From assembly GCF_003003055.1 (NCBI RefSeq), contig NZ_PVTV01000013.1, positions 124,001 through 188,000 of the forward strand: a stretch of 64,000 nt of DNA. The letters are read 5' to 3'. The notes below the pieces were generated by a model. The model had not been told where the DNA came from. It did no database searches and was given only the letters and a program-made list of their open reading frames with translations. Position 1 is the first letter of the stretch; every line of letters starts with the position of its first letter. The stretch is from Jezberella montanilacus. Lineage in GTDB: Bacteria > Pseudomonadota > Gammaproteobacteria > Burkholderiales > Burkholderiaceae_B. The position numbers and the translations under genes were made by a program. Positions 12,143 through 37,983 of this stretch are shown here, piece by piece.

Positions 12143-13429
12143 TTACAGCCTGAGATCCGTGCAATCTGCCGGGAACACATACTTTAGATCGTATAAAACG
12201 TGAGTAGCTTTCCCCAGCTTGCGGATGGCTTCCGAGCCCATCTCAGCAAACTGATGGTGAGCGACAGCAAGAATGACAGCGTCGTATGTGTTGGGTACTA
12301 AATCCTGGACTGGGGTAATGTCATATTCTTCAACCGCTTCTTTACTGCTGACCCAAGGATCATAGACATCAACCCTTACGTTATAAGCCTGAAGTTCGCG
12401 GACAATATCCACAACCCGCGTGTTGCGCAGATCAGGGCAGTTTTCTTTAAAAGCCAGGCCCATCACAAGCACTCTTGCGTTCAGTACACCCACATTTTTG
12501 CGTGTCATGGCTTTCAGCAATTGCGACACGACGTAATTACCCATGGCGTCGTTCAGCCTGCGCCCTGCCAAAATGATCTCTGGCTTATACCCCAGCGCTT
12601 GAGCCTTGTGGGTCAGGTAATAAGGATCGACACCAATGCAGTGGCCACCGACGAGGCCTGGCCTGAAGGGGAGGAAGTTCCATTTAGTCCCCGCGGCCTG
12701 CAGGACAGCCTCGGTATCAATGCCCATAATGTTGAAAATTAAAGCGAGCTCATTGATCAGCGCAATGTTGACGTCTCGCTGCGTGTTTTCAATGACTTTG
12801 GCGGCCTCTGCAACCCTAATACTGGGGGCCAGGTGTGTGCCAACCACGACGATTTGCCTATAGAGCTCATCGACTAGCTGCGCGATTTCAGGGGTTGACC
12901 CTGACGTCACTTTTTTAATCGTGCTCACTCGATGAGCTTTGTCGCCGGGGTTAATACGCTCGGGGCTATAGCCAGCAAAAAAATCGTCGTTGAACTTTAA
13001 CCCTGAAACGCGTTCTAGGACCGGCACGCATACTTCTTCGGTCGCACCTGGATAAACGGTTGATTCGTAGATAACCAAATCACCTTTTTTCAGCACCGCA
13101 GCAATCGTTTCGCTGGCCTTAATCAGAGGCTCGAGATCGGGGTTTTTATACTGATCGATAGGGGTCGGAACAGTGACGATAAATACGTTGGCATTGCCAA
13201 GTGTCGACCGATCCAATGTATACGTTAAATGCTTCGCGCTGGCGAGCTCTTCATCGTCTACCTCTAGGGTGTGATCCCGGCCTGACTTAAGCTCCGCAAT
13301 TCTCTCAGCATTGATATCAAACCCAACGACTGGTATTTTTTTACCGAACTCGACCGCGAGCGGCAATCCTACATAACCCAACCCAACTACTGCAAGCCTA
13401 ACATCCTGAATCTGCAAAGTACTCTCCAC
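12143..13429 (-). CDS. wbpO: UDP-N-acetyl-hexosamine 6-dehydrogenase (TviB/WbpO type)
   Basis: This 428-residue nucleotide-sugar dehydrogenase oxidises UDP-GlcNAc or UDP-GalNAc to the uronic acid with two NAD. An N-terminal Rossmann motif [12 protein letters not shown] is followed by the central domain with [11 protein letters not shown] and the catalytic [12 protein letters not shown] (Cys). The C-terminal domain contains [14 protein letters not shown]. It belongs to the TviB/WbpO/Cap5L group rather than plain UDP-glucose dehydrogenases. The start is uncertain: GTG at 13429, or TTG at 13417, which has a better-placed GGAGAG ribosome site. It is the first gene of the polysaccharide operon, downstream of a terminator-containing element at 13520-13552. 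Confidence 0.9.
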
Positions 13430-13519
13430 GCAAAAATGCGCCCTTGTTTTATTAAGCCCTATTTTAGAGCTTTAGTGCTCGGAGAGGGATTTGAGACTGA
13501 GTTTTATGAAATTGTAGAT

Positions 13520-13552
13520 AAAAAAAAGCCCAAGACTTTGCAGTCTTGGGCT
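13520..13552 (-). terminator. Strong intrinsic terminator
   Basis: A perfect 11-base-pair stem (13527-13537 with 13542-13552, four-base loop) is followed on the minus strand by eight T residues at 13527-13520. It ends either a small RNA or a leader transcript. It lies about 90 bases before the polysaccharide operon and 230 bases after coq7. Confidence 0.9.
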
Positions 13553-13612
13553 AAATCCACCAAAGGAGGAGGGTGGAGGAGACAATCTTGGCAAGCAAAG
13601 GAGCAATAGCTC
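13520..13612 (-). ncRNA. Candidate small RNA or attenuated leader with anti-Shine-Dalgarno motifs
   Basis: On the minus strand the sequence carries two copies of CTCCTCC within 17 bases (about 13563-13580). The second copy sits in the ten-base loop of a hairpin with arms TCCACC/GGTGGA (13577-13572 and 13561-13556). A terminator with an 11-bp stem and U8 follows at once. Exposed CUCCUCC complements ribosome binding sites, as in the CcsR/CUYCCUCCC family described in alphaproteobacteria. Two candidate promoters lie just upstream. The alternative is a regulatory leader of the downstream polysaccharide operon. The 5' end is not known; 13612 assumes the nearer promoter. Confidence 0.55.
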
Positions 13613-13616
13613 TGGC

Positions 13617-13643
13617 GCGTTAGCACTATCGTAACCAAGTCAA
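13617..13643 (-). promoter_or_regulatory. Candidate sigma-70 promoter, proximal
   Basis: On the minus strand TTGACT (13643-13638) is followed after 15 bases by TGC-TAACGC, an extended -10-like element (13622-13617). The spacing is short, so it is weaker than the distal candidate. It would give an RNA of about 90 bases ending at the U8 terminator. Confidence 0.35.
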
Positions 13644-13680
13644 CAGGTAACTTAACTACAAACTTCACATCCACAACTGA

Positions 13681-13709
13681 ATATTAACCTAGATTTTTGT
13701 GCATTGCAA
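13681..13709 (-). promoter_or_regulatory. Candidate sigma-70 promoter, distal
   Basis: TTGCAA (13709-13704), a 17-base spacer and TAATAT (13686-13681) on the minus strand. Spacing is ideal and both hexamers are close to consensus. Transcription would start near 13675 and reach the terminator at 13520 after about 155 bases. The rest of the 354-base gap 13430-13783 shows no open reading frame with a convincing start. Confidence 0.5.
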
Positions 13710-13783
13710 GAAATGACAGGTTGTCTATAGAATTCCTTGAAAATCGTTGTTTTTGTGCGACGCAACAAAATCTGTGGCTAGGG

Positions 13784-14470
13784 TTAAACCTTATAGGCAG
13801 TAAATGTCATGAGGCGTGACGTAAATTGCATCAATAGCTTGACCGGCAATGGCAGCTTTGCCGCGCCCTGCTCTTCTGCAGTCACTCGATGATCGGCTTC
13901 ATCTTTTTTCATTTGCGACACGATGGCTCTTGACCGATAGTCGTCTGCTGGCAAGCGAGTGAGGTGATTGTCGAGATGCGCTTCAACTTGCCTTTCAGTC
14001 TCGGCCATAAAGCCGAGATTACGGGCGACACCGGCCTTACCGGCTAGCAAACCCATGGCAAAAGAACCCGCATACCAAACTGGATTGAGCAGACTGGGGC
14101 GGCTTGACAGCTCGGACAAGCGCTCGCCGCACCACGCCAAATGATCGACCTCTTCTCTGGCCGCTTGCTGCAGAACCGCCCGAACCGCTTCATCGCGGCA
14201 AACCAGCGCTTGGCCTCGGTACAGCGCTTGCGCGCAGACTTCACCCACGTGATTAACTCTCATCAGACCAGCGGCATGGGCGCGTTGCTGCGGGCTCATT
14301 GGCTCTGAGGGTTGATCCGCTGTCAATCGGGCTGGATTCGGTCGTGTCGCTCGGGCGCCACCTGTCAATAAATCCAGAGCAACATCAATCTCGACAATGA
14401 CTGTATCTAACCAATGTGCCCGGCGTGTAAAAGTCACTCGCTTTTCAGACCAGGTGCTAGGGTCAGACAT
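13784..14470 (-). CDS. coq7: Demethoxyubiquinone hydroxylase Coq7
   Basis: This di-iron monooxygenase carries out the last hydroxylation of ubiquinone synthesis at the inner membrane. Of its 228 residues, the C-terminal two thirds hold the ferritin-like bundle, with iron-ligand motifs in VGEVCAQALY, EEVDHLAWC (ExxH), a glutamate in ETERQVEAHL, and KKDEADH (ExxH). The membrane-associating hydrophobic segment AGSFAMGLLAG lies between them. I use the ATG at 14470 with GGAAG upstream; a GTG at 14500 would add ten residues. The gene is divergent from the OsmC gene. Confidence 0.93.
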   Translation of the reverse strand: MSDPSTWSEKRVTFTRRAHWLDTVIVEIDVALDLLTGGARATRPNPARLTADQPSEPMSPQQRAHAAGLMRVNHVGEVCAQALYRGQALVCRDEAVRAVLQQAAREEVDHLAWCGERLSELSSRPSLLNPVWYAGSFAMGLLAGKAGVARNLGFMAETERQVEAHLDNHLTRLPADDYRSRAIVSQMKKDEADHRVTAEEQGAAKLPLPVKLLMQFTSRLMTFTAYKV

Positions 14471-14639
14471 AATCGCTTCCAGTGGGTCAAAGAGGTGCAC
14501 GAATCGTGCGAGCAGCTAGTGTAAACCCGTATGCCGTATCGTGGGAGAGCTTGGTCACAATCACCCCGTTTGCATGATTGGTATTCTCAACGACTTAAGG
14601 TTTATCATTCTCGCTTTACCAAAGGATTCGGGATCAGGG

Positions 14640-28602: not shown

Positions 28603-28676
28603 TGGAGCGGGTGATGGGAATCGAACCCACGCTTGAGGCTTGGGAAGCCGCCGTTCTACCATTGAACTACACCCGC
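28603..28676 (-). tRNA. tRNA-Gly (anticodon CCC)
   Basis: The reverse strand folds into a full cloverleaf of 74 bases including an encoded CCA: acceptor GCGGGTG/CACCCGC, D arm GTTC/GAAC, anticodon loop TTCCCAA, T loop TTCGATT. The anticodon CCC reads GGG codons. The anticodon stem GCGGC/GCCTC has a C-U mismatch at 28:42. Confidence 0.95.
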
Positions 28677-37898: not shown

Positions 37899-37983
37899 GC
37901 CCGGGTGATGAAATTGGTAGACGTAGGGGACTCAAAATCCCCCGCCGCAAGGCGTGCCGGTTCGAGTCCGGCCCCGGGCACCA
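37899..37983 (+). tRNA. tRNA-Leu (anticodon CAA)
   Basis: This 85-base class II tRNA with long variable arm has acceptor GCCCGGG/CCCGGGC, encoded CCA, anticodon stem GGGGA/TCCCC and loop CTCAAAA giving anticodon CAA, which reads UUG. The T arm is CCGG-TTCGAGT-CCGG. Its 3' end is repeated at 38886-38926. Confidence 0.97.

Follow-up and report, generated by a model that had tools for sequence, protein, structure and literature searches.

A small RNA of family RF02278 downstream of coq7 in Jezberella montanilacus with paired PhaR-type operators and a covarying leader stem

On the minus strand of the Jezberella montanilacus genome, the interval between coq7 and a tviB-like gene raises the question of whether it encodes a free small RNA (sRNA) or a leader of the polysaccharide operon that follows, and of what controls its promoter. 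The first-pass annotation of the window, by which we mean the whole 64,000-nucleotide stretch that was analysed, had offered both readings. We consider it very likely that the element is a free, trans-acting sRNA of Rfam family RF02278, an orthologue of Bordetella S17 that has its own σ70 promoter and is repressed by PhaR/PhbF at two operators. Orthology is the best reading of the RF02278 match together with the location downstream of coq7, as in S17. New beyond the known RF02278 family are the paired PhaR-type operators and a covarying leader stem, which we call P0.

An RF02278 sRNA beside coq7

The Rfam search of the interval that the first pass had proposed returned RF02278 (Betaproteobacteria_toxic_sRNA) at 13520–13584 on the minus strand (cmscan of the window, 70.2 bits against a gathering cut-off of 50, E = 4e-12), aligned over the full length of the model (1–64). 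The only other Rfam gathering matches in the window were two tRNA genes, at 28606–28676 (−) and 37899–37980 (+). Overexpression of RF02278 members is reported to inhibit growth (PMC11722255). The core is a double hairpin with two anti-Shine–Dalgarno (anti-SD) sites, and both of the CTCCTCC copies that had been noticed are present on the minus strand. Site 1 (13575–13581), at the 5′ end of the predicted mature RNA, extends into hairpin 1; Site 2 (13565–13571) occupies the hairpin 1 loop, closed by the TCCACC/GGTGGA stem (13572–13577 / 13556–13561). The intrinsic terminator (13520–13552, −) is also as described, with a stem of 11 pairs (13552–13527), a 4-nt loop and a T run to 13520, and it forms in the predicted fold of the element. 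If its size is taken from S17, the mature RNA would span about 67 nt (about 13520–13586), and this form folds at −27.7 kcal/mol (z = −5.5). CTCCTCC occurs exactly twice in the 64 kb against 5.1 copies expected, so that singly it is in no excess; a pair no more than 20 bases apart arose in none of 100 shuffles.

The window and all 17 aligned relatives share an identical 31-nt core, which 51 of the 65 collected copies contain, with the B. pertussis sequence outside the comparison. For S17, a 27-nt 5′ region of the mature RNA is described as identical across many Betaproteobacteria (PMC11722255). The stem of hairpin 1 is invariant in the 17 relatives and therefore gives no covariation test; the terminator stem is 100% paired in them, with compensatory changes in one pair. 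The element at 13520–13584 (−) is not a chance structure.

Upstream lies coq7 (13784–14500, −; NF033656, 307.5 bits) and downstream a gene for a tviB-like UDP-GlcNAc C-6 dehydrogenase (12143–13429, −; NF011729, 660.1 bits). The conserved neighbour is coq7: it precedes every one of the 65 collected copies, of which 30 were retrieved independently of coq7. Among 80 coq7 loci, some of which end too early to contain a copy, 34 have an Rfam copy at the gathering cut-off (35 matches, two of them at locus L047), always on the same strand and 172–1267 nt downstream of coq7. RF02278 matches were found in 48 of 61 genomes, the host's own included, and in 188 of 300 genomes sampled from the order. Outside the window's family, five of the 13 matching genomes (G039, G042, G045, G048 and G056) have a copy within 3 kb of coq7, and copies lie elsewhere in the genome in Burkholderia, Paraburkholderia, Ralstonia, Cupriavidus, Massilia and Polynucleobacter. 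G042 has nine RF02278 matches (L190–L197), and in one case coq7 is within 1 kb; H. seropedicae SmR1 has four RF02278 RNAs. Two Polynucleobacter copies (L170 and L171) keep Site 1 and the hairpin stem around a loop without CTCCTCC.

In Bordetella, the S17 gene sits between a glycosyltransferase gene and coq7 (PMC11722255). The likeness to S17 (PMC11722255; also CT_433, PMC12235514) covers the place beside coq7, a TTGCAW-N17 promoter, the double hairpin, the anti-RBS sites and, as we infer for the window, the 67-nt mature size. Family, fold and anti-RBS sites are likewise shared with ncS03, ncS05, ncS27 and ncS62 of Burkholderia cenocepacia (RF02278; PMC5688073). Burkholderia is described as having 3–5 double-hairpin copies per genome (PMC5688073), whereas the host, with a genome of 3.16 Mb in 19 contigs, has the window copy and one sub-threshold copy of 39 bits.

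The label of a CcsR-type RNA, which the first pass had applied, turned out to be an analogy only. CcsR RNAs expose an anti-SD, CU-rich loop, and maturation by RNase E, known for the CcsR or cuckoo RNAs of alphaproteobacteria, is what we propose for the window sRNA. However, CcsR shares its transcript, made from an RpoH promoter, with a DUF1127 gene, whereas the window promoter reads as σ70-like and no DUF1127 gene is adjacent: the neighbours are coq7 and tviB, and Pfam matches none of the five small frames in 13400–13800 at E 1. Membership of the cuckoo (CIN1 locus) group was rejected.

Promoter, precursor and leader stem

The promoter proposed in the first pass, TTGCAA-N17-TAATAT, is present at 13681–13709 (−), with its hexamers at 13709–13704 and 13686–13681; it agrees with the σ70 consensus at eight of 12 bases (counted by hand), though it falls below the promoter-scan threshold. 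Its layout resembles that of the S17 promoter, PS17 (TTGCAT-17-TACTAT), from which transcription starts 7 bp downstream by 5′-RACE (PMC11722255). From this resemblance we predict a start site near 13674 and a precursor of about 155 nt. S17 itself is made as a longer, 190-nt RNA, which RNase E cuts to 67 nt, and is Hfq-dependent (PMC11722255). By analogy, the window sRNA probably depends on Hfq too, and RNase E probably cuts its ~155-nt precursor to about 67 nt, at a processing site presumed, from S17, to lie just before the mature RNA.

The predicted precursor begins close to the 5′ arm of P0 (GGAUGUGAAG, 13663–13672, −), and the 3′ arm (CUUUGCUUGCC, 13590–13600, −) lies just before the presumed RNase E site. 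Positions 13663–13668 are paired in the fold of 13520–13669, and both arms covary in relatives. The long-form 5′ end reads GGAUGUCG in many members of the family and GGAAGUUNAG in most of the genus, and it pairs with the bases directly before the GCCAnGGUUGUCUCC block. Regular expressions picked the arms in 52 of the 65 copies (29 of 65 in another pass), giving 42 unique arm pairs, in which 282 of 378 positions pair, against 245 (s.d. 4.9) after shuffling of the arms; none of 2,000 shuffles, which ignore relatedness, reached as high a value. RNAalifold, unaided, recovered the stem in 17 chosen relatives. This alignment comprised 17 of 20 references, with L055, L056 and L058 left out for their longer leaders, and the three helices named in it were read off the same alignment; 99.3% of their cells pair in the 17 relatives, against 20–46% in slid controls. 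Besides the terminator pair, one P0 pair has compensatory changes (nine cells in all), and neither the number of pairs changed on both sides nor that of further pair types exceeded shuffles. P0, ending where it does, may position the RNase E cut.

Promoter sites and leader arms of one copy from the window's genus (L011) match those of Zwartia panacis (L052), which suggests a host in the Alcaligenaceae that is related or close to Zwartia. Under the title Bordetella parapertussis, a metagenome record (L032) has the leader arms of two copies from the window's genus (L014 and L028), and its title may be wrong.

PhaR-type operators at the sRNA promoter

Two predicted PhaR-type operators lie 56 bp apart at the promoter. 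The proximal one (13695–13713, −; core TGCAATGCA at 13700–13708) covers the −35 element and scores 19.2 bits; the distal one (13751–13769, −; core TGCGTCGCA at 13756–13764) scores 24.1 bits. Both were scored with a 19-bp matrix from 73 unique sites in 60 phasin promoters, picked by their TGCnnnGCA core, which was applied to RF02278 promoters; some genomes supplied both a phasin promoter for training and an sRNA promoter for testing. The operator motif equals that of Herbaspirillum PhbF, its PhaR, which binds TG[N]TGC[N]3GCAA by MEME and footprinting and reduces the activity of phaP1 and phbF reporters (PMC3206438). We infer that PhaR represses the window promoter. TGCnnnGCA operators are shared with PhaR/PhbF phasin promoters (PMC3206438), and the phasin promoters that we examined commonly have two, 54–58 bp apart. 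This spacing makes up 37 of 49 phasin-promoter spacings and 26 of 34 sRNA-promoter spacings, 21 of the latter in the window's genus and five outside it (L016, L048, L053, L059 and L061).

The host genome encodes a PhaR (TIGR01848, 145.7 bits, cut-off 109.45; G000:C1:513243-513560) and one phasin. Two TGCnnnGCA-type sites flank the −10 element of the phasin promoter, whereas at the sRNA promoter, whose product is an RNA, one site lies over the −35 element and one farther upstream. PhbF elsewhere binds its own promoter, but the 600 nt before the host's phaR match contain no site (best −0.1 bits). TTGCAWYGCACAA occurs once in the host genome and, with that single match, was dropped as a regulon-wide motif. 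The looser TTGYNNYGCANNAAAA has 14 matches there, against one in the reversed control; on visual inspection, promoters contain the pair of the sRNA and a single palindromic site of a phasin, and most others are in or near frames.

In relatives, the conserved promoter block reads TTGCnnnGCA with flanking A's and extends beyond the −35 element, and a second TTGCnnnGCA copy upstream is usual in the window's genus. Among coq7-linked copies, 63 of 65 promoters have a site within 250 nt (55 of 57 once near-duplicates are removed), compared with 11 of 959 background windows of coq7 loci. The exact core lies within 260 nt of 16 of 30 copies from 16 further genomes, often at the −35 element, and within that distance of none of the three Thiobacillus copies among the 30. 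An upstream motif is reported as common to three B. cenocepacia homologues (PMC5688073).

We then compared sites with PhaR in 106 genomes, namely those with matches listed over the RF02278 cut-off, the host's own left out; 114 of the 300 sampled genomes had such a match and 188 had any. One best RF02278 copy was taken per genome, thresholds were set by 40 mononucleotide shuffles per promoter, and PhaR was scored absent if the assembly had no TIGR01848 match. Among the matches listed, a site over the 99% shuffle threshold was found in 68 of 77 PhaR-positive and two of 29 PhaR-negative genomes (p = 2.6e-15), and at the 95% threshold in 73 of 77 and four of 29, respectively. Counted by family, the same comparison gave 18/19 versus 1/10, and by genus 47/56 versus 1/15, with mixed groups entered on both sides. 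The site score separated genomes with and without PhaR with an AUC of 0.94, and 300 column-permuted matrices reached 0.69 at most; there is a slight difference in G+C between the two groups (0.49 versus 0.44). RF02278 copies are related by descent and only four families are mixed for PhaR; permuting the PhaR labels within these four gave p = 0.012. In a pair from one genus, G226 with PhaR scores 19.3 bits and G346 without PhaR −1.5 bits. Exceptions occur both ways: the strict site is absent in nine of the 77 PhaR-positive genomes, four of which (G192, G341, G208 and G170) have none even at the 95% threshold, and it is present despite no PhaR match in G095 and G174 (85% complete).

PhaR is missing from 50 of the 188 RF02278-bearing genomes of the order sample, and the two genes co-occur only weakly (odds ratio 2.0, p = 0.007). 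PhaR control is therefore not universal, and a universal PhaR–RF02278 coupling was rejected. The host's second RF02278 copy (L002/L269, C6:140986-141048, −; 39 bits) keeps Site 1 and has the loop UGUAAAU instead of an anti-SD sequence. A bare core TGCAATGCA lies about 40 nt upstream of it but scores −2.4 bits on the phasin-trained matrix, leaving PhaR control of this copy unsupported. As the sRNA is often found without PhaR, with exceptions both ways, and as the host's phaR has no site and the second sRNA copy scores so low, the RNA is older or broader than its control by PhaR.

How else might the locus be read? The first pass had alternatively taken the element for a leader that attenuates the polysaccharide operon of tviB; on such a reading, the terminator would be conditional and the anti-SD loops incidental. 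The tviB start does lie 90 bases past the terminator, and a tviB homologue follows 29 of 60 copies within up to 1500 nt of downstream DNA (in others it could lie farther). However, the 30 best copies retrieved through RF02278 alone, which belong to the window's family, all have coq7 upstream (30/30); relatives with no visible tviB homologue within that stretch still retain both the core and the linkage to coq7, and in other genomes RF02278 also occurs away from coq7, which together make an attenuator very unlikely. A control point for surface glycan, also put forward there, is less likely than one for carbon storage. It is extremely unlikely, in our view, that the long transcript encodes a small protein, a possibility raised for a 32-aa frame in S17L. 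There is a 56-aa GTG frame at 13504–13674, and nearly all listed relatives have an ATG or GTG at the P0 5′ arm, but the frames that open there vary in length between 1 and more than 50 codons. Many stop well short of the core, and the reading frame differs among those that extend into it. Leader variation preserves base pairs, and none of five small frames in 13400–13800 has a Pfam match at E 1; with frames not conserved among relatives, a conserved small protein was rejected. The free sRNA with its own promoter, terminator and anti-SD action, the other reading of the first pass, is supported by Rfam, synteny and the published work on the S17 orthologue.

Granted such an sRNA, TGCnnnGCA might still serve a regulator other than PhaR as its operator, or be a frozen −35 element. 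The proximal site overlaps the −35 element, the copies share descent, the host's phaR promoter has no such site, and PhaR binding to the window operators is a prediction. Against this, the site is mostly absent where PhaR is absent, even between two genomes of one genus; many copies have a second site 54–58 bp upstream, which is the phasin-promoter spacing; and the motif is the footprinted PhbF motif. We therefore consider a frozen element or another regulator rather unlikely, and favour repression by PhaR/PhbF.

A proposed link between stored carbon and translational control

The sharing of paired sites with genes of the PHB granule suggests that stored carbon switches the sRNA on. PhaR is described as leaving DNA for PHB granules (PMC9049629; PMC11332829), and S17 as repressing targets directly through single-stranded sites (PMC11722255); transport and catabolic genes are reported to be affected by S17 (PMC11722255) and ncS27 (PMC10987360). 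In the mechanism that we propose, PhaR/PhbF on the two operators would hold the sRNA promoter off until PHB builds up; PhaR would then move to the granules, and phasin and sRNA would be derepressed together. The σ70 promoter would yield a ~155-nt precursor ending at the intrinsic terminator, RNase E would trim it to the ~67-nt form, and the CUCCUCC sites would pair with the mRNAs of uptake and catabolic genes at their ribosome-binding sites, lowering nutrient uptake. A search for strict 8-base Site 1 matches before ATG gave two matches against one in the control and is thus uninformative on targets.

A similar RNA structure occurs within phasin transcripts themselves. In G055, G057, G051 and G058, a CTCCTCC-led double hairpin lies 11–41 nt past a phasin stop codon and ends in a T run, shorter in G051; the phasin gene adjoins phaR in three of these four genomes. 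Rfam scores two of the hairpins weakly, at 30.3 and 33.1 bits, below the cut-off. A second phasin gene of G058 has a double hairpin at +130. The phasin mRNAs with CTCCTCC double hairpins at their 3′ ends are L267, L255, L257, L242 and L241; in the remaining phasin 3′ untranslated regions (UTRs), a screen for CTCCTCC-like strings returned only L249 at +157, which does not fold as a double hairpin.

To our knowledge, no transcriptional regulator of RF02278 sRNAs has been identified. The authors of the S17 study postulate a repressor of PS17 without naming it (PMC11722255). In word searches of main texts, the terms PhaR, PHB and phasin were absent from PMC11722255, PMC5688073 and PMC4603805, and PHB occurred solely in a reference title in PMC7011215, on sRNA in Herbaspirillum. 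The same kind of search found no PhaR or hydroxybutyrate in the review PMC10987360 and no PhaR, phasin or hydroxybutyrate in PMC12235514. The titles and abstract openings of the literature matches listed do not connect PhaR with these sRNAs.

We think it likely that RF02278 RNAs serve the PHB-storage regulon as its post-transcriptional arm: in PhaR-bearing Burkholderiales, PhaR would govern both phasins and anti-SD sRNAs, so that a full store shuts down import and catabolism, and in some lineages a similar RNA would reside in the 3′ UTR of a phasin mRNA. If this is true, PhaR would be the missing repressor of PS17. The operator pair offers a concrete, testable regulator for sRNAs found across the order. 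PhaR control would agree with what is reported of ncS27, namely its accumulation when growth is arrested and its part in shutting down metabolism upon nutrient deprivation (PMC10987360), and PhaR operators would join carbon storage to translational control.
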